DNA of 64,000 nucleotides, taken from contig NZ_WESC01000001.1 of the NCBI RefSeq assembly GCF_009184905.1, positions 186,001 to 250,000 on the forward strand, in the 5' to 3' direction. This DNA is from Parvibaculum sedimenti. Lineage in GTDB: Bacteria > Pseudomonadota > Alphaproteobacteria > Parvibaculales > Parvibaculaceae. Every line of letters starts with the position of its first letter. Position 1 is the stretch's first letter. Below are positions 9,670 to 26,918 of this stretch, piece after piece. The translations under genes and the position numbers were made by a program. The notes under the pieces were generated by a model. That model did not search any database. It had not been told where the DNA came from and was given only the letters and a program-made list of their open reading frames with translations.

Positions 9670-11418
9670 CTATACGCTTGCCGGTATTCTGTGCCTTACC
9701 CGGTTCCTTCCCTCCTCCTTTGCACAGTAAAGCGCGTCATCGGCGCGGCTTAATGGCTGCGTCGTATCGGCGTCACTGGCGTCGAGAATGGTCACGCCAA
9801 TACAGACAGTGATCTTGATCCTTTCGCCGTCAGCCTCAATTTCCGCCATTTGCATATCCTCGCGCAGGCGTTCGGCGACGGCGAGCGCGGCATCGAAATT
9901 CGTGTCCGGCAGGATGATGCCGAACTCTTCGCCGCCGAGCCTGCCGATCGTATCGATATCGCGCAGCTCGCTCCGCAACCTGTCTGCAAAATGTATGAGG
10001 ACCGCGTCGCCGGCCGCATGGCCAAAGGTATCGTTGATATTCTTGAAGTGATCGAGGTCGAGCATCAGCAAGGCGCATGGCCTTTTCGTGCGATGAAAAA
10101 ATTTCAACTCTCGCGCCAGGCATTCTGTGAAGTGATGGCGATTGTTGAGGTGCGTCAGGCTGTCCGTCGTTGCAAGTCGGGTCAGCGCCGCCTCGTATTC
10201 CTGATTTTTTACGGCACCGATCATGATTTCGGCAATGGACTGAAGAAATGAACTGCTGGGCCGGAGCCATGTAGGCACCCGCTTCTTGCTGCCCCAGGAG
10301 ATGTAATATTCATCGCCGTGAGCGGTCTTCACATGCGCGCAGGAAGCCCGGCGCAGCCCCAGTTTAAGAACGGCATCGACCCCTTGACGTTGGTCGGCGG
10401 GAAGCCGGGAGAGACCCCGGCGTAACATGGAGGCGTCCTCGCACAATTGCGCCAGGCACGTCCAGAGGGCATCGGCCTGTCCGTCCGGCAGGCCGGCGCC
10501 CTCATTCCACCATTGTTGTCGATGGACGACGTCTTCCCTCTGCGATTGCCGCATGAGAAAGGCGCGGTCACCGCGGGTTTCGTGGACGATGAGCTGCAGC
10601 GCCCAACCGATGTCCACCTCCGTCTCTGACGCGGAAACGGAAAGCATCCGCCTGGCGACGTCGCTGCGAATTCTCTCCATCAGGAGCAGAGAGCCCAGCG
10701 CACGGAATGTGCGCAGGAAAGCCAGAAGGAAGACGATCGTCAGTCCGGACACGACGCAGACGGAGAGAAGGGTGCTTTGTTTGAGCGTTGTCTCTGAAGT
10801 CGAGATAAAGGTGTCGATCGTCTGCTTCAGGATTGAGGCGCCATGCGCATATTTGCGGCTTTCGTCTTCGTGCTCCACACCGAGCATGATGCGTTGGGCC
10901 TGAGCGGCGTCGCCCTTTTCGGCAAGGGCGAAGGATTGAAGGTCCAGCTCAGTTCGCCGCGCATTGGCTTTCGAGATGTCCTCAAGCGGTTCCTTTAGTC
11001 CCGGCAGCAGCGTCGCGATCGTATTCAGCTCGCCTGCCAATTTTTCTCGAAAGATATCGTAACGTGTCCTCCATAGAGGATCGCCGGAGTATACGACGGC
11101 GCGGGCTGACATGGTCAGCGCTTCATCATAATAGCGGATGTTGCCTTCCGCGCGGATCAGGCGCTCGGAGATCACCCTCGAATGGCGGTAGTCGACAATG
11201 GTCTTGTAGGTCAGAAATGCGGAAGCGCAGATGACAAGCAGGATCGGCACGAGCAAGAGCCGCCGGTAGAGAGCGCTACGATCTGTCGATCTGTCGCCTT
11301 TCACATAGCGGTCCTGACCGGGATTTGAGTTTGCTTGTATTCGTCTGGACTTTCTCCCGCATACCGAGGCTGAACGAGAAAATGCGTGGCGTAAAGCGCG
11401 ACCACTCGTCACGGTCAT
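9670..11418 (-). CDS. Membrane-bound diguanylate cyclase (GGDEF)
   Basis: A 582-residue cyclic-di-GMP synthase. Two membrane helices (about 50-72 LLLVPILLVICASAF, and about 215-237 SVCVVSGLTIVFLLAF) bracket a periplasmic sensor of roughly 150 residues. A cytoplasmic linker leads to a C-terminal GGDEF domain with the intact active site RLGGEEFG. The product-inhibition I-site RDID sits at the canonical spacing upstream. The start codon overlaps the stop of the upstream glycosyltransferase gene (ATGA), so the two are probably translationally coupled, linking c-di-GMP signalling to glycan synthesis. Confidence 0.9.
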   Translation of the reverse strand: MTVTSGRALRHAFSRSASVCGRKSRRIQANSNPGQDRYVKGDRSTDRSALYRRLLLVPILLVICASAFLTYKTIVDYRHSRVISERLIRAEGNIRYYDEALTMSARAVVYSGDPLWRTRYDIFREKLAGELNTIATLLPGLKEPLEDISKANARRTELDLQSFALAEKGDAAQAQRIMLGVEHEDESRKYAHGASILKQTIDTFISTSETTLKQSTLLSVCVVSGLTIVFLLAFLRTFRALGSLLLMERIRSDVARRMLSVSASETEVDIGWALQLIVHETRGDRAFLMRQSQREDVVHRQQWWNEGAGLPDGQADALWTCLAQLCEDASMLRRGLSRLPADQRQGVDAVLKLGLRRASCAHVKTAHGDEYYISWGSKKRVPTWLRPSSSFLQSIAEIMIGAVKNQEYEAALTRLATTDSLTHLNNRHHFTECLARELKFFHRTKRPCALLMLDLDHFKNINDTFGHAAGDAVLIHFADRLRSELRDIDTIGRLGGEEFGIILPDTNFDAALAVAERLREDMQMAEIEADGERIKITVCIGVTILDASDADTTQPLSRADDALYCAKEEGRNRVRHRIPASV

Positions 11419-12701
11419 TCCAAGTTCGAAGGGTGCAATCGCTCTTTTGCCAAGCGGGAAAGTTCATTCCGGAGCGCGCTGTGTCGTACCCGGAAGCCCG
11501 CCATTCGCAGGTGTTCAAGGAAACTGCGCCGCCGGTGTGGCGTGGCGAGAAGCGCATCTATATGCGCCAGAAAGGTACTTTCAAAACGATCCGCGCTGAA
11601 ACTCCGCGCATATGTCTCCGTACACTGACGATGATTGTTGACGGGCAGGGGGCCGCTGCTCGTCGTGATGAAGGCATTTCCATTGTCAATACGGGCTTGC
11701 ATGGCCTCTGTCGTGAAAGTCTCGATAGCCTCAGCCAGCGCGGCGATGTTGCCTGTGGGGACCAGTGTGGCGAGTCCATTGGTGATGTATGGCAGATTGG
11801 TGGAATCATAGGCGATGACATGGCAACCATGCGCGAAGGCTTCGAGCACCGGCAGGCAGTAGGCGTCGTGGTAGGAAGGCAATATGAGCGCATCCGCCTG
11901 CGCATAGAGCGATGAGAGTTTGTCGTCGTCGCCGATATGGCCGAGAAATTCGACGCGGTTTTTGAGCGCGGGGCTCTCGATGCGCCGTTGCGCTTCGTTT
12001 AGCAGGCCTTCGGACGCGCTGGCCGGATGCGCCGCCACCCTGAGGCGAAAGGAAAGTCCGCGATTGCTGGCGATTTCCAGCGCCTTCAGAAGGTCGATAA
12101 GTCCCTTGTTGGGGGTAAGTCTCGCGACATGGATGAGCTCGATCGGTCCGTCGCCGGGCTCCGCGCGGATATGGGTGGGGTTAACGGAAAGCGGAAGCGG
12201 CTGTATCTGGATTCGTTCCGCCGGAATGCCGAACGAAACCAGATCGTTACGGGCAAAGTGGCTCGCAGCGCAGACGGCATCGGCATGGAAAAGCAGCCGC
12301 TTCTGCTTCAGCGACTGCAGGGCACCTTTGTGATCGGACGCCCATTGCGGAGGGGTGATGCCATGAAAAAAGACCGATGCGCGGGCTTTTGCAGGGAGAT
12401 ATCGGATCGATTCGAAGGAGCGGAAATACCAGCCGAATTCGTAATGATGGATATCCGCCGTCCTGAAGAATGGGTCGGCAATCAGTTCGGGAATTTTGTT
12501 GACGCGGCATATGCGCGGGTCGTCGAAGTCGCTGCCGCCGCAATAGATCCTGAGTTCAACCGGTCTGGTGCGAGCAAGTTTGTCTAAAGCGGCAATTTTA
12601 CGTGTCAGAACACGCCCCATCCCGTCGCCTGCAGCGAAATAGGTTGTGTACAGCGCAATCTTGAAGGGCTTCGCCTTGTCCGTGCCAGATTCAATTGGCA
12701 T
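11415..12701 (-). CDS. GT4-type glycosyltransferase
   Basis: A 428-residue glycosyltransferase with GT-B fold. The C-terminal sugar-nucleotide domain shows RLTPNKGLIDLLKALEIA and the E-x7-E type motif DAYCLPVLEAFAHG, both typical of GT4 retaining enzymes. No signal or membrane helix, so it acts on the cytoplasmic face of the membrane, probably in a surface polysaccharide or glycolipid. Start ATG at 12701 gives MPIESGTDK. It precedes and overlaps the diguanylate cyclase gene, and is divergent from a PIG-L-like deacetylase gene that may modify the same glycan. Confidence 0.85.
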   Translation of the reverse strand: MPIESGTDKAKPFKIALYTTYFAAGDGMGRVLTRKIAALDKLARTRPVELRIYCGGSDFDDPRICRVNKIPELIADPFFRTADIHHYEFGWYFRSFESIRYLPAKARASVFFHGITPPQWASDHKGALQSLKQKRLLFHADAVCAASHFARNDLVSFGIPAERIQIQPLPLSVNPTHIRAEPGDGPIELIHVARLTPNKGLIDLLKALEIASNRGLSFRLRVAAHPASASEGLLNEAQRRIESPALKNRVEFLGHIGDDDKLSSLYAQADALILPSYHDAYCLPVLEAFAHGCHVIAYDSTNLPYITNGLATLVPTGNIAALAEAIETFTTEAMQARIDNGNAFITTSSGPLPVNNHRQCTETYARSFSADRFESTFLAHIDALLATPHRRRSFLEHLRMAGFRVRHSALRNELSRLAKERLHPSNLE

Positions 12702-12767
12702 CTGCGATTGTCCACCTTATTAAAAATGCCTAATGTAATTTTTCACGGCTGATAAGAGGGGGCGTCA

Positions 12768-13534
12768 ATGCCGCGTAGTGTGATGATTTTCAGTCATCCC
12801 AATCATGAAGTAGCGATACTTGGTTCGGTGCGGCGTCTCCAGCCCTATCTCATCTTTCTCACCGATGGCGGCGCGCAGGAGCGCGTCGAGCAGAGTAAGG
12901 AAAGCCTCAAGTCAGTGGTGAGCATGGCGGATGTTGCCTGGCTCGGCGTTGAGGAGGCCTCGCTCTATGAAGCATTGCTCAAGAGCGATGTCGCCAGCTT
13001 TCGCGCGCTTTCCGGCGAGGTTGCGTCGATCCTGAGCGGCCTCGACATCGACCGCGTCTTTTGCGACTCCATCGAGTTCTACAATCCGCTGCATGACGTC
13101 GCTCTCCCGATCACGCTTGCCGCGCTTGGCAGAAGCGCGGCGCCTGTTTTCGAGGTGCCGCTCATCCATCAGCGCAAGGCGGATGCCGAAGTCTATGAGG
13201 TTTTGCGCAGTCCGCAATCGCTCTGGGGCGATTGCATAAATACGAAACTTACGAACGAGGAGCACGACGTGAAGCGCGCTGCCTTCAACATTTACACTTC
13301 TCTTGCCGCTCAACTCGGCAAAGATAATGTCGATCTGGCGGTTTCGCGGGCGAGCGAGGAGCAGTTCCTGAAGGCGCGCGGGAAGCTCCCGAGCCCGCCA
13401 TCGATCAGGTGCTGCGTTACGAATGGCGCGGCAAGAAGCTTCAGGACATGGGGCTCGTCAAGGAAACGATCACCTATGACGACCACTATGTTCCGCTCGT
13501 CAAGGCCATCGCCCCTGAACTCGTGGTAGCCTGA
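12768..13534 (+). CDS. PIG-L-like deacetylase family protein, frameshifted near the 3' end
   Basis: The product resembles PIG-L/LmbE N-acetylglucosaminyl deacetylases: an N-terminal FSHPNHE in place of HPDDE, LIFLTDGGAQERVEQ and a later FYNPLHD that could supply the third metal ligand. After ARG at about residue 204 the frame becomes non-homologous-looking. Skipping two bases in GCGCGCG at 13374-13380 restores a natural C-terminus (REAPEPAIDQVLRYEWRGKK, ending ELVVA at 13534). Unshifted translation ends at 13529 with a low-complexity tail. It may be a recent mutation, a sequencing error, or a slippage switch. Family assignment is tentative. Confidence 0.55.
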
Positions 13535-13546
13535 TCCGTGATCCCC

Positions 13547-15091
13547 TCATCTTGAAGGCGGGGTTCCGTCCAGAAAAGAAGCGCAGGGCACAACGGACCG
13601 TGCCCGAAATATTCTGTGGAAGCGCTCCGCCAAGATCCGATCGAAGCTCGCCTGCTCTGTCGTGAGGCTTGTGGGATAGACGTCATCCAGCACGTCCGAA
13701 AGTTCGTCGTCCGATGCGAAGTGAGAGAAGTCGACGACGCAATGGGTCAGATCGATTTTCGAAGAACGCACCCTGGTCGAGAAAGCGCCGAACGTCTCGC
13801 GTGGGGAGAGGGGCGCGCTCAGAGGTTCAAACACGTCGAGATCGCCGTAATAGAGGCGGTTGTCGCCATGCACGGTTGGCCGCGGCCATGGGGTCTCGAC
13901 AGTAATCACCGCCTCGGCGTCATCATCGCCCGGCGTGAAGGCCTGCGCATAGTTCTTCATCGTTGCGACGAGGCTCGTCCGCAATTGGCCCCTGTTGGCG
14001 AGATCGATCGCATCCTCCCCATGGGCGGAATATGTCGCCCAGAGCCCCATCAGGAGGAGTGCCGCCGCCGCGATCCGCTGCCGCGTGACCCCGGTATTTT
14101 CCCGCGCCGTGAGCGCGATAGCGATGGCGAGCATCAGCCAGCCGGGGCCGAGGAGTCGCTGGTCGAAGGGATCGAAGTGATTGCGCAGGCGCAATATGGC
14201 GATGATCGCGATATAGGCCATGCCGACAAGGCCGGTCGTCAGTGCGAGCGGTCGCGGTTGCCAGTCGCGAGACGCAATGAGGGCGACGAAGGCAAAGGGC
14301 AACATTGCCCAGAATACGAGCTGCATATTGGCGGAGGCGAAGGTGAAGGCCTGATAGCCCAACGGATCGGTCGACGGTCCGCGATCCATGCCGGTTGAGT
14401 GCCCCGTGAGCCAGGTGTTGACGCCGAGATAGAGCGCGAAAAGCACACCTGAAAGCAAGAGGATCAGAACGACATCCCGCCGTGCCCGCGCTCTGAAGGC
14501 GATCAGATAGGCGACGAGGAAACTCGCGGCGACGAAGCCAAAGACATAGCGGCTCGATATGCCAATCACGAGCGCGGTGGCGAGCAGCAACCATGCGCGG
14601 GTGGGATGTTCTTCGGCGCGGTGCATGGCGTCGATGCCGGCAAGGGTGAGAACCAATGCGAAGATCATCAGGTTCTCGGACCATGTCATTGCCGAAATGG
14701 TGAATGAGAAGGGGGTAATGACCAGCGCGGCCGCCAGAAGCGCCGGAATGCGCAGTCGTCTCAGAAAGAGGTAGGTCGATATCCAGAGAAGTGCATTCAC
14801 GAATTTCGAGGCGATCGCGGTATGAACGAGATCGAGGCCGGGGCTCGTCAGTGCGAGCAGGAACGGATATCCAAACGGAAAGACGGCGAAATATCCGTGG
14901 TCGAGCGTCGGATAGAGATGCGCCTGAAACCCCTTGGCGAGCCGCAGATAGGCCCAGGAGTCTGGCGACAAATAGCCGAACCAGGACGAGATCGCCGCAT
15001 TGGCCACATGGACGATGACGACGAGCGCAAAGACGAAGGCCGTGTTGCTGCCTGTGAACACGGGCCGGCCAAAAGAGGTTCGCTGCGGCAT
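13547..15091 (-). CDS. Polytopic membrane protein, PMT/GT39-like
   Basis: A 514-residue inner-membrane protein with about ten helices, and a soluble C-terminal tail of about 130 residues. An acidic motif in the first periplasmic loop (SWFGYLSPDSWAYLRLAKGF) followed by FPFGYPFLLAL resembles GT-C glycosyltransferases that take sugars from polyprenyl-phosphate. The exact acceptor cannot be read from sequence. It converges on the PIG-L-like gene with 12 bases between stops. The neighbourhood suggests decoration of a cell-surface glycan or lipid. Confidence 0.7.
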   Translation of the reverse strand: MPQRTSFGRPVFTGSNTAFVFALVVIVHVANAAISSWFGYLSPDSWAYLRLAKGFQAHLYPTLDHGYFAVFPFGYPFLLALTSPGLDLVHTAIASKFVNALLWISTYLFLRRLRIPALLAAALVITPFSFTISAMTWSENLMIFALVLTLAGIDAMHRAEEHPTRAWLLLATALVIGISSRYVFGFVAASFLVAYLIAFRARARRDVVLILLLSGVLFALYLGVNTWLTGHSTGMDRGPSTDPLGYQAFTFASANMQLVFWAMLPFAFVALIASRDWQPRPLALTTGLVGMAYIAIIAILRLRNHFDPFDQRLLGPGWLMLAIAIALTARENTGVTRQRIAAAALLLMGLWATYSAHGEDAIDLANRGQLRTSLVATMKNYAQAFTPGDDDAEAVITVETPWPRPTVHGDNRLYYGDLDVFEPLSAPLSPRETFGAFSTRVRSSKIDLTHCVVDFSHFASDDELSDVLDDVYPTSLTTEQASFDRILAERFHRIFRARSVVPCASFLDGTPPSR

Positions 15092-15189
15092 TTGAGAGGT
15101 CTAACCGGCTATTCGTGGACGAAATTCCAAGACCGGCATTAAGTCAGCGAAACGGCGCCGAAGGAAGGGTGTGATGAAAACCTGTCCTG

Positions 15190-15603
15190 CTAGTTTCCTT
15201 TCGGCAGGCTTTTGATGAGCCTCGCGCGTTCGGCGGCGACATCGTGCAGGCGGTGAGACCTGAGCGCCGCCACCTCGCCTTCCGTATAGGGCGTGAAGTT
15301 GGCGGGCACGTCCACCGCGTCGAAGTTCCGTACGAGCCAGTTGAGAAGATCGGCGACGGCGGCGTTGGACAGGGCGGATTGCCGCGTGCCCGGCACCTGA
15401 ACGAGGTAGGCGCGGCCGCCTTCTGCCGCGAGGAACTTTGCGACATGGTCCTTGAGCGGTGGCACCTTGCCCGGCGTTTCAGCGCCGTCCGGCAGGTGGC
15501 AGCCCATGCAGCGGAGCATGTAGTCGGTATGGGGCGATGCCGCAGCGTGACCGCAGAGGACAAGGGCGAGGAACAGGACGCCAGGGAAACGCAAAGCCGT
15601 CAA
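15190..15603 (-). CDS. Monohaem c-type cytochrome of the amine dehydrogenase operon
   Basis: A 137-residue exported protein: signal peptide to about residue 22 (ALVLCGHAAA), then one haem attachment site CMGCH at 32-36. It is the last gene of the operon and its ATG overlaps the light-chain stop (ATGA). It is the likely electron acceptor of the quinoprotein, or helps in maturation. No methionine occurs after the haem motif, so the usual His/Met ligation is not possible from this chain; the sixth ligand could be a His (KDHVAKF or RSHRLHD) or absent. A similar small cytochrome gene sits in the aromatic amine dehydrogenase cluster of Alcaligenes faecalis (from memory). Confidence 0.85.
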   Translation of the reverse strand: MTALRFPGVLFLALVLCGHAAASPHTDYMLRCMGCHLPDGAETPGKVPPLKDHVAKFLAAEGGRAYLVQVPGTRQSALSNAAVADLLNWLVRNFDAVDVPANFTPYTEGEVAALRSHRLHDVAAERARLIKSLPKGN

Positions 15604-16106
15604 TCTCCCGTGCTCACGCCCATCAGCACCGCCGTCGAGCAGTTATAGACGATGTCGGCGCTGCTTCCCGCGCACCAGTTGATGTCGTTGGCCGAGTCTG
15701 TGCGGTAGAGCGGGCGGTCGCCCTCGTCGCGCTGACATGTGCAGCGCCCACATCCGCTGCGTCCGCAGCAGTCATTGTAGGAAATGATGTAGTCCTTGCC
15801 GTCGGTCGGGTTGCGGCAGGTGCCGACCCATGTGACGGAGGAGGCGACGGTGCCGGGCGGGCAGGAACTCGTCGTGCCGCCGCAGCAGGTGCAGAGAAAG
15901 CCGTCGATGGCGCAGTAGCGCCAATAATCGCAGCGTGTCGGATCGCCTTCCTCGCCAGTGCCCGCATGGGCGCGCGCCACGGGCAGGAGGGGTGCCGCGC
16001 CCACGCCGATGATGAAGGCCCCGGCCGTCGCAAGGAAGCTCCGGCGCGAACTCTGCCGCGCAAGCAGCCGCGAGAATGTTTCCATCCATTTATCGATAGC
16101 ACTCAT
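15600..16106 (-). CDS. aauA: TTQ amine dehydrogenase light (beta) chain
   Basis: The 168-residue product is the catalytic small subunit of a tryptophan tryptophylquinone amine dehydrogenase, oxidising a primary amine to aldehyde plus ammonia in the periplasm. A Tat signal (RRSFLATAGAF, residues 21-31) exports it. The Cys-rich core is intact: CDYWRYCAIDG, CPPGT, ISYNDCCG, NDINWC. Trp93 and Trp144 are 51 residues apart, the same spacing as the cross-linked Trp57 and Trp108 of Paracoccus methylamine dehydrogenase. Asp68 and Asp112 match its Asp32 and Asp76. The symbol follows the aromatic-amine type because no amicyanin or mauF gene is present; substrate is not proven. Confidence 0.9.
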   Translation of the reverse strand: MSAIDKWMETFSRLLARQSSRRSFLATAGAFIIGVGAAPLLPVARAHAGTGEEGDPTRCDYWRYCAIDGFLCTCCGGTTSSCPPGTVASSVTWVGTCRNPTDGKDYIISYNDCCGRSGCGRCTCQRDEGDRPLYRTDSANDINWCAGSSADIVYNCSTAVLMGVSTGD

Positions 16107-17240: not shown

Positions 17241-18455
17241 TCAGGGCTGCTTCAGGGAGGTCGCGAAGGAGGCGACGTGATCGACGGTGCGGAGAAGCTT
17301 GCCGCTCTTCGCGTCATAAACGTCGAGCGCGGGTTTCACCACATCGAGCTGTTCGAACTTCTGGCCGAGAAGCGTCAGCGCGACCAGCGACCAATAGGGC
17401 ACGACCGTCTTCATCGACGCGCCATAGACGATGGGATTCGCATCCTGGCTGACTTCGATAGCGAGCGTCGCATTGGCGAGGTCGAATTCCGCCACGCGTT
17501 TGTGGGTCGCAATGTCGAAGACCCAGACGGCGTCGCCTGGCTCTTCATAGGTGCTTTCCGGGCCCTTTCGCATCAGCGCATAAAGAAGCCCGTCTTTCTT
17601 CTGAACGGCGAGCGGTTGATAGCCGCCGGTGCGCCAGCCATCGGCGCGTTCGCCGTCGGTGAGCAGCGACCATTTCTCGCGCAGCTTCACTTCGTCGCCC
17701 GATGCATCGACCTGATAGATGTATCCGGCGAGCGAAACGAAGAGCCAGTCGTCGCCCGCGCGTACCGCATGCACGATGACGGGATCGGCGAAGGGATCGA
17801 AGAAGGGCTTGCCGTCCGTCTGCTTCACCACCTTGCCGTTATCGTCCAGCACCATGGATTTGAGGCTCGCATCTCCGCAGAGAAGCAATATGCGGCGCGG
17901 CCCAGCGGGATAGATCTGCCCGCAGCCCGGCGTGTCCGTTTCCGCCACGAAGCGGTTCTTCTGAAGATCGACGATGGTCATCGTCTGCCTGGGCGTGAAA
18001 TTCGTAATGGCGACGAAGCGGTCGTCATCCGTGAGCCCCGCCATGCGCGTCTGGACGAGGGCCGTCATACGACGTGGCGGCACTTCGATTTCATGGAGCG
18101 GCAGAAGCGTGCGCGGATCGTAGACCGTCACATAGTCGTGCCGGGGGCCGCGTGTGCCCTTCTCGAAAAAGGTTTCGAGCGCGACCACATTACCGGTCGA
18201 TTTCGGCAGCAGCACGCCCGCGCTCCAGAAGCCCGTGCTGAGCATGCCGAGCATCTTGCCCTTGTCGGCGTCGAACAGCATTGCCCGCGTATCGACGTTG
18301 TGCTGTGCACCGAGGTCGCCGATCCAGATCCAGTGATCGCGGGGACCGTCGGGCACCTTCTCGACATGCAACGTCTCCGGCTGGAGCTCATCTGCCGTGG
18401 CAGGCGCCATGACGAGCATCAACGCGGCGATTGCGATCGAACTCCAGACGCGCAT
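17241..18455 (-). CDS. aauB: TTQ amine dehydrogenase heavy (alpha) chain
   Basis: The 404-residue product is the large structural subunit of the amine dehydrogenase heterotetramer. A signal peptide (SSIAIAALMLVMAPATA) precedes a seven-bladed beta-propeller typical of the family, with repeats such as RAMLFDADKGKMLGMLS, VTVYDPRTLLPLHEIEVPP and VWVFDIATHKRVAEFDL, and the conserved pair of cysteines in TPGCGQIYP and LLLCGDA. It heads the operon heavy chain - E - D - light chain - cytochrome. The divergent AraC gene and the 138-base gap between them probably control it. Confidence 0.9.
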   Translation of the reverse strand: MRVWSSIAIAALMLVMAPATADELQPETLHVEKVPDGPRDHWIWIGDLGAQHNVDTRAMLFDADKGKMLGMLSTGFWSAGVLLPKSTGNVVALETFFEKGTRGPRHDYVTVYDPRTLLPLHEIEVPPRRMTALVQTRMAGLTDDDRFVAITNFTPRQTMTIVDLQKNRFVAETDTPGCGQIYPAGPRRILLLCGDASLKSMVLDDNGKVVKQTDGKPFFDPFADPVIVHAVRAGDDWLFVSLAGYIYQVDASGDEVKLREKWSLLTDGERADGWRTGGYQPLAVQKKDGLLYALMRKGPESTYEEPGDAVWVFDIATHKRVAEFDLANATLAIEVSQDANPIVYGASMKTVVPYWSLVALTLLGQKFEQLDVVKPALDVYDAKSGKLLRTVDHVASFATSLKQP

Positions 18456-18593: not shown

Positions 18594-19616
18594 GTGACTT
18601 CCGAGACGCTCATTCGGGCGAGTGTGCTTGGTAATCTGCACAGCCTTTTGGCTAGCTATGGCCTTGCGCCGGAAAAGGTCGCCTTGCTCTCCGGCATGAC
18701 GCCCGCCGATCCGGGTGACGAGACCGCCCTTATCAGCCAGCGGAGTTATATGGATCTGCTCCATCTATGCGCTCTGGAGACGGGCGATCCGCTCTTCGCA
18801 TTGAAACTTGGCCTCAGAATGGTAGCCGGTGACCTCGGCGTGCTGGGGCTGCTCGCGGCCAACAAGCCCACCCTGCGAACGGCGATTGAGAGCCTCAACG
18901 AGCATTTTCGCAGCTATCAGCAGGGGGCCGATATTGCGGTCGAACCCGTCGGCGACGGTCTGGTACGGCTGACATACCGCGTCGGCGAGCGGCTGACCGG
19001 CGGCCTCGAGGCGGACATTGATCTCACCCTCGGTGCCGCGCTTGCCTTCTTTCGCCGCTTTTTTGGAGCCCGCTGGCGCCCGCGTGAGGTGCATGTCGTC
19101 TACGGTCCGGTCGCGCACCGAAAATCTCTCGAGCGGGTGTTGGATGCTCCCGTCTGGTTCCTGCAGGACGCAAATGGATTCACCTTCGAGGAGCGGCTTC
19201 TCGATGAAAGCCAGCCCGGTGCAGAGCCGCAGCGTGCGACGGCGCTTGAGGCATATCTGCGCCAGATCCATGCGGCGTCGGCCCTCGAAGCCGATTTCGT
19301 GAGCAGCCTTCGCATCTTCATCGTCTCGAACCTTGCCATCGCAAATGTTTCCGCCGCGGCCGCTGCCGCCGACTGCGGCATGTCATTGCGCAGCATGCAG
19401 CGCCGGCTCGGTTCGCGCAGGCTCACCTATGAGCGCCTCGTCGATGAAACGCGCCGTGATATCGCCGAACGCCTTCTCGCGACCTCGCCGCTCTCCATTG
19501 CCGAAATCGCTTATCACTGCGGCTATGGTGATCCGGCGAATTTCCATCGCGCCTTCCTTCGCTGGGCCGGGGAGACACCGGCGGCCTACCGGCGCGCACG
19601 ATTGGCTACGAATTAG
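18594..19616 (+). CDS. AraC-family transcription regulator
   Basis: A 340-residue activator of the OruR/ArgR-like AraC subgroup: an N-terminal ligand-binding domain of about 220 residues (PF12625-type) and a C-terminal double helix-turn-helix (SAAAAAADCGMSLRSMQRRL and IAEIAYHCGYGDPANFHRAF, the latter being the AraC signature). The GTG start follows GGAGG. It is divergent from the amine dehydrogenase operon and most likely induces it in response to an amine. A TTTGG-TG-CCAAA palindrome at 18541-18552 between the two genes is a possible binding site. Confidence 0.88.
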   Translation: MTSETLIRASVLGNLHSLLASYGLAPEKVALLSGMTPADPGDETALISQRSYMDLLHLCALETGDPLFALKLGLRMVAGDLGVLGLLAANKPTLRTAIESLNEHFRSYQQGADIAVEPVGDGLVRLTYRVGERLTGGLEADIDLTLGAALAFFRRFFGARWRPREVHVVYGPVAHRKSLERVLDAPVWFLQDANGFTFEERLLDESQPGAEPQRATALEAYLRQIHAASALEADFVSSLRIFIVSNLAIANVSAAAAAADCGMSLRSMQRRLGSRRLTYERLVDETRRDIAERLLATSPLSIAEIAYHCGYGDPANFHRAFLRWAGETPAAYRRARLATN

Positions 19617-19725: not shown

Positions 19726-19741
19726 TGGCATGTGCCTTGCT
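19726..19741 (+). promoter_or_regulatory. Sigma-54 promoter of the ABC transporter operon
   Basis: TGGCATG-TGCC-TTGCT matches the sigma-54 consensus TGGCACG-N4-TTGCW with one mismatch. The invariant GG (19727-28) and GC (19739-40) are exactly ten bases apart. Transcription would start near 19752, giving a leader of about 45 bases before ATG 19797. The sigma-54 gene rpoN is in this window at 32-34 kb. It implies nitrogen control through NtrC or another enhancer-binding protein. Confidence 0.7.
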
Positions 19742-19746
19742 AATTG

Positions 19747-19774
19747 GTATTACGATTTCGGCCTTTCGTAATAC
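19747..19774. promoter_or_regulatory. NikR-box-like inverted repeat operator
   Basis: A perfect 9-bp inverted repeat, GTATTACGA and TCGTAATAC, with a 10-base spacer. Written as GTATTA-N16-TAATAC it has the same geometry as the E. coli NikR operator GTATGA-N16-TCATAC. It begins six bases after the sigma-54 -12 element and spans the expected start site, so binding would block transcription. The obvious regulator is the NikR-family protein encoded at the end of the same cluster. Confidence 0.6.
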
Positions 19775-19796: not shown

Positions 19797-20792
19797 ATGA
19801 GCCGCAATGCAAGGTTTGGTTGGGTTTTCGGGCTGGTGCTGTCGGTCTTCACGATCACAGGCCATGCAGGTCGCGCCGAAGCGGCGCCGCTCAAGATTGG
19901 CTATAGCGACTGGCCGGGCTGGGTTGCCTGGCAGGTGGCGATCGACAAGGGCTGGCTGAAGGAAGCAGGCGTCGACGCCGAATTCCAGTGGTTCGACTAT
20001 TCCGCATCGATGGATGCCTTCTCCGCCGGCAAGATCGATGCCGATCTGGTGACGAATGGCGACGCCCTCGTGATGGGCGGCGGCGGCACCAAGAGCGTGA
20101 TGATCATGCTCACCGACTATTCGAACGGCAACGACATGATCGTCGGCAAGCCGGGCATCAAGAGCCTCAAGGATCTGAAGGGCAAGAAGGTCGGCATCGA
20201 GATTGGTCTTGTCGAGCACCTCCTGCTTCTCGATGGCCTCAAGAAGGAAGGCATGTCGGAATCCGACGTCACCTTGGTCAACACCACGACCAATTCGACG
20301 CCGCAGGTGCTCGCCTCGGGCGACGTCTCGGCGATTGGTGCATGGCAGCCCAATTCCGGCATGGCCATGAAGCTCGTACCGGGCGCGAAGCCGATCTACA
20401 CCTCGGCGCAGGAGCCGGGCCTCATCTATGACGTTCTGGTCGTCAATCCGACGAGCCTCGCCGCGCATCGCGCCGAGTGGGTGAAGCTCATGAAGGTCTG
20501 GAACAAGGTCGTCGCCTATATCAATGATCCGAAGACGCAGCCCGATGCGCTGAAGATCATGTCGGCTCGCGTCGGCCTCACGGCTGCGCAGTACAAGCCG
20601 CTCCTCAAGGGCACCAAGCTGCTCAGCCTCGAAGACGGCAAAAAGACCTTTGTGAAAGCTGACGGCTTCAGCTCTCTCTATGGTTCTTCCTACATCGCCG
20701 ACGACTTCAACGTTAAGAACGCGGTCTACAAGGTGAAGCAGCCAGTGGACAGCTACATCGATCCCTCCCTCACCGACGAAGCGTTGAAGTAA
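19797..20792 (+). CDS. ABC transporter substrate-binding protein, NMT1/SsuA type
   Basis: A 331-residue periplasmic binding protein with signal peptide ([19 protein letters not shown], cleaved near AEA-AP). The mature part starts [29 protein letters not shown], the pattern of the NMT1/taurine/nitrate-type family, and resembles binding proteins found in urea-carboxylase regions. ATG 19797 follows CGGGAG; a longer upstream frame lacks a ribosome site and would lie on the promoter. It is first in an operon with permease, ATPase, creatininase-family and ligase genes. The ligand is unknown; a small nitrogen compound is inferred from the sigma-54 promoter and neighbours. Confidence 0.88.
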
Positions 20793-20820: not shown

Positions 20821-21783
20821 ATGACACGGACAAGATGGTTTGCGGTGCATGCCGAGCTTTCGCCCCGCGCGAGATCTCTGCTCGGCTTCTTCTCCTTCGT
20901 ACTGCCGATCCTTCTCTGGTGCATCGTGAGCTATGTGCCCGCCGTCTGGCACCCTCTGGTTCTTATTACCGATCCGGGCAGCGTGGATTATTTCCAGCCC
21001 GACATGCGCGTCGATCGCGCGACATTCGATCAGGAAACCGCCGACGCGACCGCGCAGAATCGCGCTCTGCCGCAAGGCGTTCCTGCCAATCCGATCTATC
21101 TTCCTGCGCCCCACGAAGTGCTGAAGGCTTTCTATACGTCCTTCACGATGCCGCCCGAGGCACGCGACAGCCCGTGGCTCCATCAGAGCCTCTGGCATTC
21201 GATCCAGGTTATCTTCTGGGGCTTCGTTATCTCGTCGATCTTCGGTGTGCCGCTGGGCATTCTCTGCGGCACCTACTCGCCGATCTCGCGGCTGACGGAG
21301 CCTTTCGTCGAGTTCTTCCGCTACCTGCCTGCGCCCGCCTTCGGCGCGCTCGCGGTCGCCATTCTCGGCATCTATGATGGCCCCAAGATCGCCGTCATCG
21401 TCATCGGCACCTTTTTCCAGCAGGTGCTCATCATCGCCAATACGACGCGCAAGCTCGATGGTGCGCTCGTCGAAGCGGCTTTGACACTCGGCACGAAGAA
21501 TCTGCAGCTTCTGTCGCGCGTCGTCATTCCGGGCATCCTGCCGGACCTTTATCGCGACCAGCGCATTCTGCTCGGTTGGGCATGGACCTACCTCATCGTC
21601 GCCGAACTCATCGGCACGACCACCGGTATCACCTGGTTCATCACGCAGCAGGCGCGTTATCAGCATTTCGCCAATGTTTATGCGGCGATTTTCATCATCG
21701 GCATCATCGGTCTTGGAACGGACATCCTGCTTGGCCTTCTCGGCAAGCGTCTCTTCCCGTGGGACCGCACGGTCAAGGCGTGA
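20821..21783 (+). CDS. ABC transporter permease
   Basis: A 320-residue inner-membrane permease of the SsuC/TauC/NrtB class with about six helices. The EAA motif that contacts the ATPase is visible as [26 protein letters not shown] long periplasmic loop of about 90 residues (residues 40-125) sits between the first two helices and is larger than in plain taurine permeases. It lies 28 bases after the binding-protein gene and 10 bases before the ATPase gene. Confidence 0.9.
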
Positions 21784-21793
21784 GGGAGCGAAC

Positions 21794-22705
21794 ATGAACG
21801 CGCAAAAGACGCTTCCCTCCTATCTCGAACAGTCGCAGCAGGTTCGCGAGCGCTTCGACCGGATGAAGTCGCGTGAGGTCATCCTCAAGGTGAAGTCGCT
21901 CGGCAAGACCTTCGAAACGCAGAAGCGGGAGACCGTGGCGCTGAAGGACATCAACTTCGAGACGTATCGCCGTGAATTCCTCTGCATCGTCGGCCCTTCA
22001 GGCTGCGGCAAGTCGACCCTGATCCGAATTCTTGCCGGTCTCGAAACACAGACATCGGGCGAGGTGCTTCTGCAGGGCAAGCCCGTGCGCGGGCCGGGCC
22101 GCGACAGGGGTATGGTGTTTCAGGGCTATACGCTCTTTCCCTGGCTCACCGTGAAGCGCAACGTCATGTTCGGCCTTGAGGTCAACAATGCAGGCCGCCT
22201 CGAAGCGGAGACGCAGGCGTTGCAGTGGCTGCAACTGATCGGCCTGGAGAAATTCGCCGACGCCTATCCGCATCAGCTTTCGGGCGGCATGAAGCAGCGC
22301 GTCGCCATCGCCCGCGCGCTGGCAAACCAGCCGCGCATCCTGCTGATGGACGAGCCCTTCGGCGCGCTCGACGCGCAGACGCGCACACGCATGCAGGCGC
22401 ATCTCCTCGAGATCTGGCGCAAGATCGACATCACCATCGTCTTCATCACGCACGACCTTGACGAGGCGATCTATCTTGCCGACCGCATTCTGGTGCTCAA
22501 GCCTCATCCCGGTGAAGTGCAGGAATTGATTGAGGTGCCGGTGCCGCGCCCGCGCCAGATGGATCAGTTCATCTCGGAAGAATTCCTCACCACCAAGGCG
22601 CGGCTCGAAGAGCTGATCTATTCGAGCGAGGCACATGGGGAAGAGGGCGAAGAGCCCTATCCGATGATGATGCGGCTCGCCGAAGTCGGCGACAATGTGG
22701 AGTAA
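21794..22705 (+). CDS. ABC transporter ATP-binding protein
   Basis: A 303-residue ATPase of the SsuB/TauB class. It has Walker A (GPSGCGKST), Q-loop ([10 protein letters not shown]), ABC signature ([15 protein letters not shown]), Walker B ([12 protein letters not shown]) and H-loop (FITHDLDEA). ATG 21794 follows GAGGGAG; an upstream frame reaching 21674 lies inside the permease gene. A 30-residue N-terminal extension ([20 protein letters not shown]) is unusual. It energises uptake through the permease upstream. Confidence 0.92.
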
Positions 22706-22709
22706 GCCC

Positions 22710-23471
22710 ATGCTCTGGTCGGAACGTACATGGGCTGAAATCCCCGCCGATCTCGACGCGGCGGGCCATGCCGCGATCCTGCCCGTCGGCGCGACGGAGC
22801 AGCACGGGCCGCATATGGGCACCGGCATGGATGCTGTGCTCGCGGATCTTCTCTGCAAGGCGGTTTCCGAGCGCACGAAGGTGCCGATGCTGCCGACCAT
22901 GTTCTATGGTTGCTCTATCGGCCATAGCCGCCGCTGGCCGGGCACCATCGCGCTGCAACCCATCACGCTCATCAATCTCGTCAAGGATATTGGCGACTGG
23001 GCCTATCACTCCGGCGTGCGCCGGCTCTTCATGGTCAACACCCATGTGACCAATGCCGCGCCATTGCGCTGCGCGCTCGAAATGCTCCGGGCCGAGCATG
23101 ACGACATGATGGTGGCGCTCGTCAATTCGGCGACAGTCAGCAAGCGCGTCCGCGAGTTCCATTTCGCCGATGGAGACGACTGGCATGCGAATGATGCCGA
23201 GACGGCGCTGATGCTTGCCCGCGCACCGGAGATGGTGCGCCCCGATGTGCAGAAGGAAGCCGACGATCCCGACCGCACCGATGGTCTCGTTTTCGCCCAT
23301 CCCGTCAATCGCACCAGCCTCAATGGCGTGACAGGTACGCCGAGCCACGGAACGGCGGAGAACGGCAATATCTGGTTCGACTGGATGGTCGAGGATCTGA
23401 GCGAGTTGATCCTGAAAGGGCTCAAGGAAAATCCCCCGCTCGAGCACTCCTATTTCGAAAGCAGCGGCTGA
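22710..23471 (+). CDS. Creatininase-family amidohydrolase
   Basis: A 253-residue metal-dependent amidohydrolase of the creatininase/MftE family. Ligand motifs are visible: E30, H32 and D41 in ATEQHGPHMGTGMDA, and HANDAET near residue 165. GCSIGHSRRWPGTI matches the family G-x-S-x-x-H segment, but the usual G-H-G-G-N loop reads NTHVTN. ATG 22710 follows GGAG; an ATG at 22695 overlapping the ATPase stop is the alternative. Such enzymes open cyclic or linear amides (creatinine, formamides). Placed between an importer and an amide-forming ligase, it likely hydrolyses the imported compound or its product. Confidence 0.82.
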   Translation: MLWSERTWAEIPADLDAAGHAAILPVGATEQHGPHMGTGMDAVLADLLCKAVSERTKVPMLPTMFYGCSIGHSRRWPGTIALQPITLINLVKDIGDWAYHSGVRRLFMVNTHVTNAAPLRCALEMLRAEHDDMMVALVNSATVSKRVREFHFADGDDWHANDAETALMLARAPEMVRPDVQKEADDPDRTDGLVFAHPVNRTSLNGVTGTPSHGTAENGNIWFDWMVEDLSELILKGLKENPPLEHSYFESSG

Positions 23472-23576: not shown

Positions 23577-24938
23577 ATGACCGCGACCCCCGACATCAAG
23601 AAGCTGATGCAGGAGCTGAAGCAGAAGGGCGTGAAGTATTGTATCGGCGCCTATGTGGACATCCACGGCGTGCCCAAGGGAAAGGTCGTGCCGATCGATC
23701 ATCTGGAACACATGGCCCACGGTTCCGAGCGCTACACCGGCTATGCGCTGGATGGCCTCGGGCAGGCGCCGAATGATGACGAGATCACATCCATCCCCGA
23801 TCTCAACCACATCATCCAGCTTCCCTGGGAACCCAAGGTTGCCTGGATGCCCGCCGACAATGGCTTTCAGGGTAAGCCTTATCCGCTCAACACACGCGTT
23901 GCGCTGAAGAACGCCCTTGCCGATGCGGCGAGCATGGGCTTCGGCTTCAATCTCGGTATCGAATGCGAGATTTACGTTCTGAAGCAGAATGAGGACGGCA
24001 CACTTTCCGTGCCCAATCCCGACGACAAGCTGGTGAAGCCCTGCTACGACGTGCGCGGCTTCATGGACCAGTTCACCTGGCTCGACAAGGTTGCGACCTG
24101 CATCAACGATCTCGGCTGGGATCTCTATTCCTTCGACCATGAAGACGCGAACGGCCAGTACGAGTTCGACTTCCAGTATGCCGATGCGCTCACCATGTGC
24201 GACCGGCTGATCTTTTTTCGCGACATGGCCAAGCACTATGCGAAGGAAGAAGGTCTCCTCGCGACCATGATGCCGAAGCCCTTCGCCAACAAGACGGGCA
24301 ATGGGGCTCACTTCAACATGTCGCTGTCGGATCTCGCGACTGGCAAGAACGCTTTTGCCTGCGATCCGAAGGACGACCCGCGTGGGCTCGGCCTCACGAA
24401 GATCGGCTATCAATTCATCGGTGGCATCCTGAAGCACGGCCCTGCGCTTTGCGCCGCTTTCGCACCGACGGTGAACAGCTACAAGCGGCTCGTGCGTCAG
24501 GGTGCGATGAGCTACTTCACCTGGGCGCCGGTGTTCAACTCCTACGGCTCGAACAACCGCACCAATTCTGTCCGTGTGCCTGCGGGCGGCGGACGCTGCG
24601 AATCGCGCAATGCCGACGGCGCGGTGAACCCCTATCTGGCGGCAACACTCGCTCTCGCCGCCGGTCTCGAGGGCATTCGCGAAGGGATCGACCCGGGCGA
24701 GCCGAATGAGGATAATCTCTATACGATTTCGGAGGAGGCGCGGCAGGCTCGCGGCATCCATTTCCTGCCGCAGACGCTGCAGGAAGCGGTCGCCGCTTTT
24801 GCCGCCGATCCACTAGCGGAGCGTGCGCTCGGCAAGGAACTGCGCGATGAATTCGTCAAGTACAAGACCGAAGAGTGGAACGCCTATCACCTCTCGGTCA
24901 GCCAGTGGGAAATCGAGCGCTATAGCCACATGTTCTGA
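23577..24938 (+). CDS. Type III glutamine synthetase-like amine/ammonia ligase (GlnT family)
   Basis: A 453-residue member of the glutamine synthetase superfamily, type III/GlnT group. It has the N-terminal beta-grasp segment ([20 protein letters not shown]), metal-binding GIECEIYVL, the ATP-grasp [12 protein letters not shown] and the NRTNSVRVP and [14 protein letters not shown] segments. Relatives include gamma-glutamylmethylamide synthetase and gamma-glutamyl-alkylamide synthetases, so the acceptor may be an amine rather than ammonia. ATG 23577 follows GGAGAG. It ends the catabolic part of the cluster and is 23 bases from the NikR-like gene. Alternative function: ordinary glutamine synthesis. 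Confidence 0.85.
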
Positions 24939-24961: not shown

Positions 24962-25432
24962 ATGGCCGAGATCGAAAATGGCCGCTCCGAGAACCGTCCC
25001 GTCAGCCGGATCAGCATCTCGCTCCCCGAGGAGCTGCTGACCGAGCTTGACGAGATGGTGGAGGCGCGCGGCTTCGCCAGCCGCTCGCAGGCGATCAACG
25101 ACATGCTCCACCAGTTTCTGGTGGAGCATAAGCGCGAGCGCGGCGACGACGTCATGGCGGGCACGATCACGCTTTTCTACGACAATTCGGTGAGCGGCTT
25201 GCAGAAGCATCTCGCCGATCTTCAATATCGCCATGTCGCGGAAGTGATTTCCTCGCTGCACGTCCATCTCGTCCATAACCAGACGATGGAGGTGATCCTC
25301 GTGCAGGGGCCGGCAAGAACGCTTCAGGCGATTGCCGACGAGATGATAACCACGCGCGGTGTCATTTCCGGGAAGATGCAACTCGTCACGGCGGTGATCC
25401 CGCCGCTTCACCCCTCCACGCCGGGTGAGTGA
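24962..25432 (+). CDS. NikR-family ribbon-helix-helix regulator with altered metal site
   Basis: A 156-residue regulator: an N-terminal ribbon-helix-helix (RISISLPEELLTELDEMVEA, about 16-50) and a C-terminal ACT-like NikR domain. By alignment to E. coli NikR (ligands His76, His87, His89, Cys95) the equivalents are Tyr89, His100, His102 and Thr108, so two of four nickel ligands are lost. DNA-contact Arg3 is kept (R16), Thr5 becomes Ser. A matching operator lies at 19747-19774 upstream of the ABC genes. ATG 24962 follows GGGGA. It probably senses another metal or a small molecule and represses the cluster. Confidence 0.85.
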   Translation: MAEIENGRSENRPVSRISISLPEELLTELDEMVEARGFASRSQAINDMLHQFLVEHKRERGDDVMAGTITLFYDNSVSGLQKHLADLQYRHVAEVISSLHVHLVHNQTMEVILVQGPARTLQAIADEMITTRGVISGKMQLVTAVIPPLHPSTPGE

Positions 25433-25435
25433 CGG

Positions 25436-26092
25436 TCAGGCAATGGGTTCGTCGGGAAAGGCGAGCTCATGCCGCGCCCGCCATTCGGGTACGACATAGT
25501 TGATGATGATCGATTTGCGGATGCCTGCATATTCGCGCTTGGCGACGCCGTGCCATGTGTCCTCGCCGGGAATGAAGATCAGACCCTTGTTGAAGCCGCC
25601 CGGTGCGGAGCCCAGATGCCGCTTGCTGGCATCGTAAATATCGGTGCCCCAGCCTTCAGCATCCGGCCTGTCGGACAGGTAGATCAGCATGGTGAAGAGC
25701 TTTGCGCCGATATCGGTGTGCGGCTCCAGCCAGAATCCGTCGCGGTCCTGGCAATATTCGATGCGGAGCGAGGTTCCCTTGAGCGATATGCCGGTCACTT
25801 TTTCGAGGTGGCGCACGGTTTCGGGCGACTGGAAGGCGCTCGCCACGGCCTCGCAGACGGGGAAGCGTTTGCGGTTCTCGACCGAGAAGAAATTGCGCGT
25901 CGAGTTATGTGTCTCGCGCTTGCCGAGCGTGTCGCCGATTTCCGGCGCCTCGACCGGGAGCGCCGGGATCGCATGGGCAACGTCGTCCGGCAGCGCCTGT
26001 GCCAAAAGCCAGTGACGATAGGGATGCGTGTCGAGCTTTGCGCGATCGAGGCAATCGGAAAACGCGCGGGCGACGGTTACGCTGTCACTCAT
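25436..26092 (-). CDS. 2-oxoglutarate/Fe(II) oxygenase family protein (second of pair)
   Basis: A 218-residue double-stranded beta-helix oxygenase. The iron triad HxD...H is visible as EPHTDIGAKLFTMLIYLSD and EDTWHGVAKR, with an Arg a few residues further on (GIRKSII) for 2-oxoglutarate. No signal peptide. Its ATG overlaps the stop of the upstream oxygenase gene (ATGA), so both are made together. It converges on the NikR-like gene with three bases between stops. Substrate is unknown; prolyl-hydroxylase-like enzymes of this size also act in glycan or peptide tailoring. Confidence 0.82.
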   Translation of the reverse strand: MSDSVTVARAFSDCLDRAKLDTHPYRHWLLAQALPDDVAHAIPALPVEAPEIGDTLGKRETHNSTRNFFSVENRKRFPVCEAVASAFQSPETVRHLEKVTGISLKGTSLRIEYCQDRDGFWLEPHTDIGAKLFTMLIYLSDRPDAEGWGTDIYDASKRHLGSAPGGFNKGLIFIPGEDTWHGVAKREYAGIRKSIIINYVVPEWRARHELAFPDEPIA

Positions 26093-26766
26093 CTCAGTCC
26101 CGTTCTCTCTTGCGGCATCGGTACAAGCGCCGCCGGTACCTTGCCTACGCCGAAGAGACGCTTGAACTTTTTCACACGGCCCGAGAGGCGGTGCCGCGCC
26201 GCTTCGCGCATCATCACGTCTTCGTCGCGGCAGTAATTGAGCATCACGTAACGCCGGGGGCCGACAAAGGGCTCATGCCCGTGCCACGAATTGGGCTGCA
26301 CCTTGAAGGCGAAGAGCGTGCCGCCCTCGGGCGGAACCTCGGCGGCGTAATCATCCATGTCCGTCGGCGAGCGCAGCACGCGCAAGCGTCCGCCCTTCGG
26401 CGCCCAAGGCTCGTTGAGATAGAGGAGAAGCGTCGCGAGCTTGAATTTTGAATCCGCGTGGATCTGTCCATCGCCCGCCTGACAGCAGCTTCTCAGCGTG
26501 ATGAGCGCGGGCCGCCCTGCCAGATCGACATCGAGCTTTTCGGAAACCATGGCGCGGAGCTTTGGTCCGGCCAGTTCCGCAAGAAGCTTCTCGAAGACGG
26601 GGCCGGAATGCGTCGCTTCCGGCAGAAAGAGGCCCGCCATGTCGAGATCGGGAAAATCGCGAATGACTTTTTTCAGATTGTCGGGCCCGAGAAAATTCGG
26701 CACGACGAAATGCGGATAGGGTTCTCGTTCGACTTTTGCCGTTTCGACGGCCGCGTACTGGATCAT
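26089..26766 (-). CDS. 2-oxoglutarate/Fe(II) oxygenase family protein (first of pair)
   Basis: A 225-residue oxygenase with an HxD...H triad (GQIHADSKFKLATLLLYL and NSWHGHEPFVGPRRYVML). The WAPKGGRLRVLRS segment resembles prolyl 4-hydroxylase-like proteins. ATG 26766 (MIQYAAVE) was chosen; ATG 26775, directly after GGGAGAGG, adds three residues. It differs enough from the second oxygenase that the two may act on different positions of one substrate. Neighbouring genes do not fix the pathway. Confidence 0.8.
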   Translation of the reverse strand: MIQYAAVETAKVEREPYPHFVVPNFLGPDNLKKVIRDFPDLDMAGLFLPEATHSGPVFEKLLAELAGPKLRAMVSEKLDVDLAGRPALITLRSCCQAGDGQIHADSKFKLATLLLYLNEPWAPKGGRLRVLRSPTDMDDYAAEVPPEGGTLFAFKVQPNSWHGHEPFVGPRRYVMLNYCRDEDVMMREAARHRLSGRVKKFKRLFGVGKVPAALVPMPQERTGLR

Positions 26767-26918
26767 GGCTCGCATCCTCTCCCGACTCGCGCGTCGGGTT
26801 TCTCCCCCATTTGAGGCGGATGCTAAGTCTCGGATTTGCCACGGGCTATGTGTCACATTGTCAGTGAACGGTGCCAATCCGTCGCAGGCTTCGCGGTGTC
26901 TGAGACAAACCGCCGCGC

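Follow-up and report, generated by a model that had tools for sequence, protein, structure and literature searches.

Nickel-responsive NikR proteins, such as those of E. coli, H. pylori, and P. horikoshii, combine a ribbon-helix-helix (RHH) domain with a NikR_C domain, coordinate nickel in a square-planar site formed by His76, His87, His89, and Cys95, and are made to bind DNA by this ligand. The box of the E. coli protein is of the type GTATGA-N16-TCATAC, i.e., inverted half-sites with an overall span of 28 bp. A non-metal response within a metal-sensor family is described in PMC5016687 for FrmR, the formaldehyde-responsive member of the CsoR/RcnR family. In the case of guanidine, PMC12186494 describes riboswitches that switch genes for its utilisation on with guanidine, and, based on PMC11410670 and PMC12186494, the residue at K. 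lactis position 1330 separates guanidine carboxylases (Asp) from urea carboxylases (Asn).

The site described in this study is located in a stretch of 64,000 nucleotides from Parvibaculum sedimenti (the window, to which all coordinates refer unless a locus is named), where positions 19747-19774, without an assigned strand, read GTATTACGATTTCGGCCTTTCGTAATAC. Its two inverted half-sites, GTATTA-N16-TAATAC, span 28 bp and match the half-site order and spacing of the E. coli NikR box exactly; they extend to a perfect 9-bp inverted repeat with a 10-base spacer (GTATTACGA-N10-TCGTAATAC). Both features had been claimed by an earlier sequence-only reading and were borne out. Based on the exact match and its conservation in front of the gene for a substrate-binding protein (SBP), we annotated the site as a NikR-type operator, the family consensus being GTATTAC-N14-GTAATAC. 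A search for GTATTA-N16-TAATAC revealed no other place in the window, even with two mismatches allowed (0.12 expected from shuffles), and in the whole genome the operator was the single exact match, with 12 other places at two mismatches vs. 45 for a reversed control pattern. Given the base composition, about 4e-5 occurrences of the 7+7 motif GTATTAC-N14-GTAATAC would be expected per window. A perfect 9-bp repeat alone is not rare in the window, which contains four at a spacer length of 10 bases and 58 when spacers from 0 to 20 bases are counted; the operator exceeds chance because it is conserved in 71 of 72 SBP-bearing loci.

Directly upstream, at 19726-19741 on the plus strand, a sigma-54 promoter (TGGCATGTGCCTTGCT) was identified, which is the only exact match in the window to the consensus TGGCAY-N5-TTGCW; four further sites with one mismatch did not exceed the number in shuffled sequences. 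The transcription start predicted from this promoter is at about 19752, inside the repeat, in agreement with the proposed overlap with the +1 position, so that the operator spans about -5 to +23. This arrangement was found throughout the family, since a sigma-54 score of at least 13 of 15.5 was detected just upstream of the box in all 72 aligned regions vs. 3 of 72 control windows and none of 72 shuffles. Relative to the predicted start, the box began anywhere between -8 and +7 in these regions, and a strict 10-bp phasing of box and promoter was therefore dropped. NtrC enhancers follow the motif GCAC-N6/7-GTGC upstream of the promoter; 22 of the 74 upstream regions contain NtrC-like sites, where shuffled sequences gave a mean of 1.5 and at most 4, and no exact site of this type was present in the window. 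Sigma-54 control of the operon probably amounts to nitrogen control.

The promoter precedes six genes, all on the plus strand. Using domain and family models, we identified an ABC transporter with an NMT1/SsuA-type SBP (19797-20792), a permease (20821-21783), and an ATPase (21794-22705), followed by a creatininase-family amidohydrolase (22695-23471; PF02633, 1.6e-65, but under the cut-off of the three NCBIfam families matched), a type III glutamine synthetase (23577-24938; TIGR03105, 653.7 bits vs. a cut-off of 469.6), and, at the far end of the cluster as previously claimed, a gene of the NikR family (24962-25432). The best NCBIfam match of the SBP was TIGR03427, the SBP family linked to urea/guanidine carboxylases, though with 147.8 bits (4e-43) it remained below the cut-off of 333.9. 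With Pfam and NCBIfam models, none of the operon genes was recognised as encoding a nickel transporter or nickel enzyme, and no Rfam element, and hence no riboswitch at the operon head, was found between 18000 and 27000 up to E = 1. Two 2OG-Fe(II) oxygenase-like genes on the minus strand (25436-26092 and 26089-26877) run towards the NikR-like gene, the longer above and the other below the Pfam cut-off. On the other side of the operon, a gene similar to the methylamine dehydrogenase heavy chain (17241-18455, minus strand) adjoins an AraC regulator gene (18594-19616), which suggests an amine-oxidation cluster next to the operon. The AraC gene was set aside as a regulator of the operon, its product being nearest to QhpR (below the model cut-off) and its neighbour being the methylamine-dehydrogenase-like gene.

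In regard to its domains, the NikR-like protein belongs to the NikR family, with RHH_1 at 39 bits (cut-off 20.5) and NikR_C at 83 bits (cut-off 22); two of the NCBIfam NikR equivalog models scored above their cut-offs, and TIGR02793 scored below. An AlphaFold model (mean pLDDT 77) had as its closest structure 2bj7, which we take to be P. horikoshii NikR, with 39% identity, and the fold is common to both; entries of the C-terminal domain superposed at about 1-1.6 A, while the whole-chain rmsd was large. Major differences from nickel NikR were detected at the ligand positions. The window protein has Tyr, His, His, and Thr at positions 76, 87, 89, and 95 and thus lacks two of the four nickel ligands; among 81 family members, Cys95 was found in none and His76 in five, while His87 was kept in all and His89 in 77. 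By comparison, 13 of 14 alphaproteobacterial NikRs, taken from the weaker matches of the relative search, had Cys95, and 13 had His76. The positions were consistent with an alignment of PDB structures. In a tree including 30 of 83 members, the group formed one side of a branch with 100/100 support against the 14 NikRs. An invariant Glu81 was dropped as a marker of the clade, as the nearest solved NikR (2bj1) also has Glu at this position. We therefore annotated the gene product as a predicted repressor of a separate NikR clade, and the case for a response to nickel is weakened by this separation together with the loss of Cys95 in 81 of 81 members and of His76 in 76. Unlike nickel NikR, it is encoded within a transporter operon that is linked to guanidine and has a sigma-54 promoter.

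Relatives of the NikR-like gene were collected by scanning species genomes with an alignment of close relatives, resulting in 433 confirmed matches, and our analysis was based on the best 80 of these. Within these 80 loci, matches were found for SBP (72), permease (73), ATPase (73), creatininase (63), and glutamine synthetase (71). In some methylotrophs, an extra gene lies between SBP and permease (e.g., L070 6109-6966 and L046 1777-2607), whose sequence cluster spans 17 loci. GTATTAC-N14-GTAATAC preceded the SBP gene in 71 of the 72 SBP-bearing loci, the eight loci without an SBP match being left out of this count, with L097 as the exception; in a set of 74 upstream regions, which includes that of L049, the box was present in 73. 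A weight matrix built from 72 sites and run over 1.43 Mb (loci from L028 on plus the window; threshold 11 bits) resulted in 83 matches above 11 bits, of which 77 lie upstream of SBP (71 loci and six secondary sites) and one is the window site, these being nearly all training sites. Three of the remainder, from outside the training set, precede the permease gene in L082, L092, and L068, where SBP and permease are on opposite strands, so that each split locus has a second box in front of its permease half. The last two lie elsewhere, in L077 and in L108.

Scanning 50 of the genomes with up to one mismatch, we found a site in 43, in 42 of them in the cluster, and four off-cluster sites vs. 11 for the reversed control pattern. 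Since off-cluster sites are this rare, the regulon is essentially one operon in those 50 genomes. The exact motif was also searched in 299 genomes of the phylum and matched in three, including that of the window; in the other two, no cluster gene was found within the roughly 2.5 kb inspected, and the L108 site is located inside a LysR-like reading frame (named by eye). Altogether, the conservation visible in these genomes indicates that the NikR-like protein and the repeat almost certainly form a pair, as the sequence-only reading had proposed, and we take them to be a dedicated repressor and its operator. That reading had also named in advance one finding that would speak against the pair, namely, absence of the repeat from orthologous clusters that carry the regulator; the repeat was present in 71 of 72 such clusters and duplicated in the three split loci, and in a second sample drawn by SBP it was missing from all four operons without a neighbouring regulator.

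The biology of the operon could be approached through the genes next to it. A biotin carboxylase of the urea/guanidine carboxylase type was detected in 58 of the 80 loci (best 80 of 433), usually together with a DUF1989 pair and an allophanate hydrolase; representatives of these linked genes were confirmed by TIGR02712, TIGR03425, TIGR03424, TIGR02713, and Pfam models. Position 1330 was read by alignment to the K. lactis structure, with six of the 58 linked copies unreadable there. Asp was found in 51 of the 52 readable carboxylases, L105 has Tyr, and none has Asn; urea was rejected as the substrate on this basis. Of the 22 genomes without a carboxylase on the locus, 19 have one elsewhere, with Asp in all 18 that were readable (22 of 25 loci, some of which belong to one gene). 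In the remaining three (G743, G745, and G753; G745 is an isolate) no carboxylase was found. In G745, Methylobacillus arboreus, the locus (L049) holds the transporter, creatininase, glutamine synthetase, and the regulator with its box, and because this genome lacks a guanidine carboxylase match, the creatininase-synthetase pair may act without a carboxylase. Conversely, a carboxylase without the regulator is common within the family (22 of 34 genomes). Judged by these gene neighbourhoods, the window operon appears to be tied to guanidine assimilation, which agrees with the earlier description of it as non-nickel-looking. The substrate, the missing nickel ligands, and the exchange with guanidine riboswitches go beyond that sequence-only reading.

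The genome of the window itself carries its carboxylase, with Asp, unlinked to the operon on another contig (C12), where the carboxylase operon includes guanidine-I and guanidine-II riboswitches as well as a transporter of its own. This region (L115, 4077-15466) comprises guanidine-I (12831-12947) and guanidine-II (11004-11048) elements, a TIGR03427 SBP, permease and ATPase, a DUF1989-like pair, the carboxylase, allophanate hydrolase, and a 2OG-Fe(II) oxygenase gene (14312-15466). Its SBP reached 467 bits on TIGR03427, unlike the window SBP, to which it is 31% identical. Since a riboswitch-controlled transporter and carboxylase operon is already present in this genome, the second transporter may import a related compound.

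Comparison of operon heads revealed that the box and the guanidine-I riboswitch (RF00442) can take the same place. In L097, the operon and its sigma-54 promoter are kept and a guanidine-I riboswitch (100 bits) replaces the box; the NikR-like gene is retained, yet no box was detected before the operon. The region of this operon with promoter and riboswitch lies at 3640-3870, and the genome has a single off-cluster site, with one mismatch. A second sample, drawn by SBP rather than by regulator from two orders (399 and 397 genomes), led to 22 operons; it includes the two centre genomes G693 and G699, found via the regulator, and several others also belong to the 80-locus set. Sixteen of these operons, including those of the two centre genomes, have both regulator and box, and a guanidine-I element at the operon head is missing from all 16. 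In one (L234), a box is present and the regulator lies off the contig, one is that of the L097 genome, and three have a guanidine-I riboswitch and neither regulator nor box (L213, L235, and L233). In L219, the operon head shows a sigma-54 site alone, regulator, box, and riboswitch all being absent, and a weak guanidine-II match lies before the carboxylase. Thus, four of the five operons without a box have a guanidine-I riboswitch, which directly follows the sigma-54 promoter in L213, as it does in L097, lies upstream of SBP in L235, and lies ahead of a TonB receptor gene preceding SBP in L233, where the contig ends soon after; absence of the regulator in the four operons lacking it was judged within the neighbourhood. 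Fisher tests on 21 operons (L234 left out) gave p = 8e-4 both for the association of the regulator with the box and for that of the riboswitch with absence of the box, and p = 1.3e-3 for the former after removal of the two centre genomes, all uncorrected for kinship, as related genomes are not independent counts. An RNA sensor in some genomes would therefore stand where others, such as that of the window, have a DNA operator and a protein.

The two kinds of control also occur side by side. Among 50 genomes with the carboxylase on the locus, guanidine-I was found above cut-off in 17 and guanidine-II in 21; guanidine-II elements lie before the carboxylase in 16 and before the DUF1989 pair in three, and guanidine-I elements before the DUF1989 pair in eight and before SBP in one (L097). 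Based on these positions, the NikR-type box would command the transporter part, and riboswitches often the carboxylase part next to it, so that each control may respond to a signal of its own. In L070, the genes for the regulator, the DUF1989 pair, the carboxylase, and the hydrolase are closely spaced, and the locus contains no guanidine riboswitch above cut-off.

A second case was identified in L237, which holds a more distant relative of the regulator (L012, 44% identical) with Ser, His, Phe, and Ser at the nickel positions. The run consists of a TIGR03427 SBP of the riboswitch type (526 bits), permease, ATPase, regulator, DUF1989 pair, and a carboxylase with Asp, where the stretch ends. Three boxes of 22-30 bits were detected, none of them in the matrix training set: one before SBP, one just before the regulator, where it abuts the end of the ATPase gene, and one ahead of a fatty-acid-hydroxylase-like gene that precedes a TonB receptor gene (11929-15631). 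No Rfam riboswitch at gathering score and no clear sigma-54 site were found in L237. The last of these boxes and the riboswitch of L233, each ahead of a TonB receptor, are hints at outer-membrane receptors in guanidine uptake.

Putting these observations together, we regard as probable a reading in which the site is the operator of a NikR-like repressor that blocks a sigma-54 promoter, is released by guanidine or a similar compound, and stands in for the guanidine-I riboswitch. NtrC or another activator would open the promoter under nitrogen shortage, and the NikR-like protein, assumed from NikR to be a tetramer, would act as a dedicated local repressor that sits at the start site and holds it shut; this geometry is naturally read as roadblock repression of a promoter under nitrogen control. 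The effector, likely guanidine or a close guanidino compound, would release the protein from DNA, and the operon would then supply ABC-transporter uptake for guanidine assimilation together with a creatininase-like hydrolase and the glutamine synthetase. The site, the promoter, the pairing through conservation, the missing Cys95 and His76, the connection to guanidine carboxylase, and the exchange with the riboswitch are seen in the sequences themselves, while repression, activation by NtrC, guanidine as the effector, and release on binding are the steps that we infer. Release is expected because guanidine riboswitches turn their genes on with guanidine; if so, the ligand logic would be reversed relative to nickel NikR.

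Several other explanations have to be weighed against this reading. That the repeat arose as a palindrome by chance, or forms an mRNA hairpin unconnected with the regulator, has in its favour the 58 perfect 9-bp repeats of the window, and is nevertheless hardly credible: across many proteobacterial genera, 71 of 72 loci keep the repeat while its spacer letters vary, which rules out a chance palindrome, it tracks the regulator, and it spans the predicted start, so that the window transcript would miss part of the left arm of a hairpin. The protein might also still respond to nickel or another metal and shut the nickel-free carboxylase route whenever nickel permits guanidinase and urease to be used. 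Fold and family membership as well as the retained His87 (81 of 81) and His89 (77 of 81) would allow some metal binding, but Cys95 and His76, present in 13 of 14 canonical alphaproteobacterial NikRs each, are found in none and five of the 81 members, the regulator exchanges with a guanidine riboswitch, and the window operon has no recognisable nickel transporter or nickel enzyme, which makes this explanation improbable. We consider it similarly improbable that the C-terminal domain senses a metabolite of nitrogen status or of the pathway, e.g., glutamine or allophanate, in place of guanidine. This domain matches the regulatory domain of NikR, which presumably has an ACT-type fold, the operon carries a glutamine synthetase, and nitrogen control is suggested by the sigma-54 promoter and by the NtrC-like sites (22 of 74 regions, none in the window); however, the nitrogen signal probably arrives already via sigma-54, the box is exchanged with an element that senses guanidine, and the first genes of the operon encode a transporter for the substrate.

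Somewhat unlikely, in our estimation, is a variant in which the pair holds and the transporter imports another guanidino compound, such as methylguanidine, a creatinine-like compound or another amide, with the substrate of the creatininase-like enzyme as the inducer. It would explain why the window genome has a separate riboswitch-controlled transporter with an SBP of 31% identity, why window-type SBPs, that of L213 included, score far under the TIGR03427 cut-off, and why creatininase (63) and glutamine synthetase (71) are so frequent among the best 80 of 433 loci, and it fits G745, which has the operon and no carboxylase match. Against it, the same SBP stands under a guanidine-I riboswitch in L213 and L235, and five loci (L041, L070, L077, L086, and L088) show no creatininase or glutamine synthetase match and have transporter and regulator adjoining the carboxylase genes.

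Returning to guanidine-released repression, the most specific form of this reading, for which we see the balance as about even, is that the NikR-like protein is a guanidine-sensing transcription factor in which guanidinium occupies the vacated nickel site or its vicinity and thereby frees the protein from DNA. In evolution, this factor and its riboswitch counterpart would have replaced each other at the same position of the promoter. FrmR would be a parallel as a member of a metal-sensor family with a non-metal response, in a fold and a pathway that we take to be unrelated. Neither the NikR family nor this type of promoter is new; we know of no earlier instance of their combination, of the missing nickel ligands, or of the exchange with a riboswitch. 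Within a search scope that took in few subscription papers, no report of this NikR-like regulator came up in the literature on NikR or on guanidine utilisation (with creatininase, glutamine synthetase, urea carboxylase, riboswitch, or repressor). The locus names a concrete candidate regulator together with its operator and its promoter, and relatives are found in culturable, non-pathogenic bacteria such as Parvibaculum indicum and Methylovorus. If the reading is true, a fold known for sensing metals would here have been adapted to an organic ligand, and RNA and protein sensors would have replaced each other in nature at a single promoter position.
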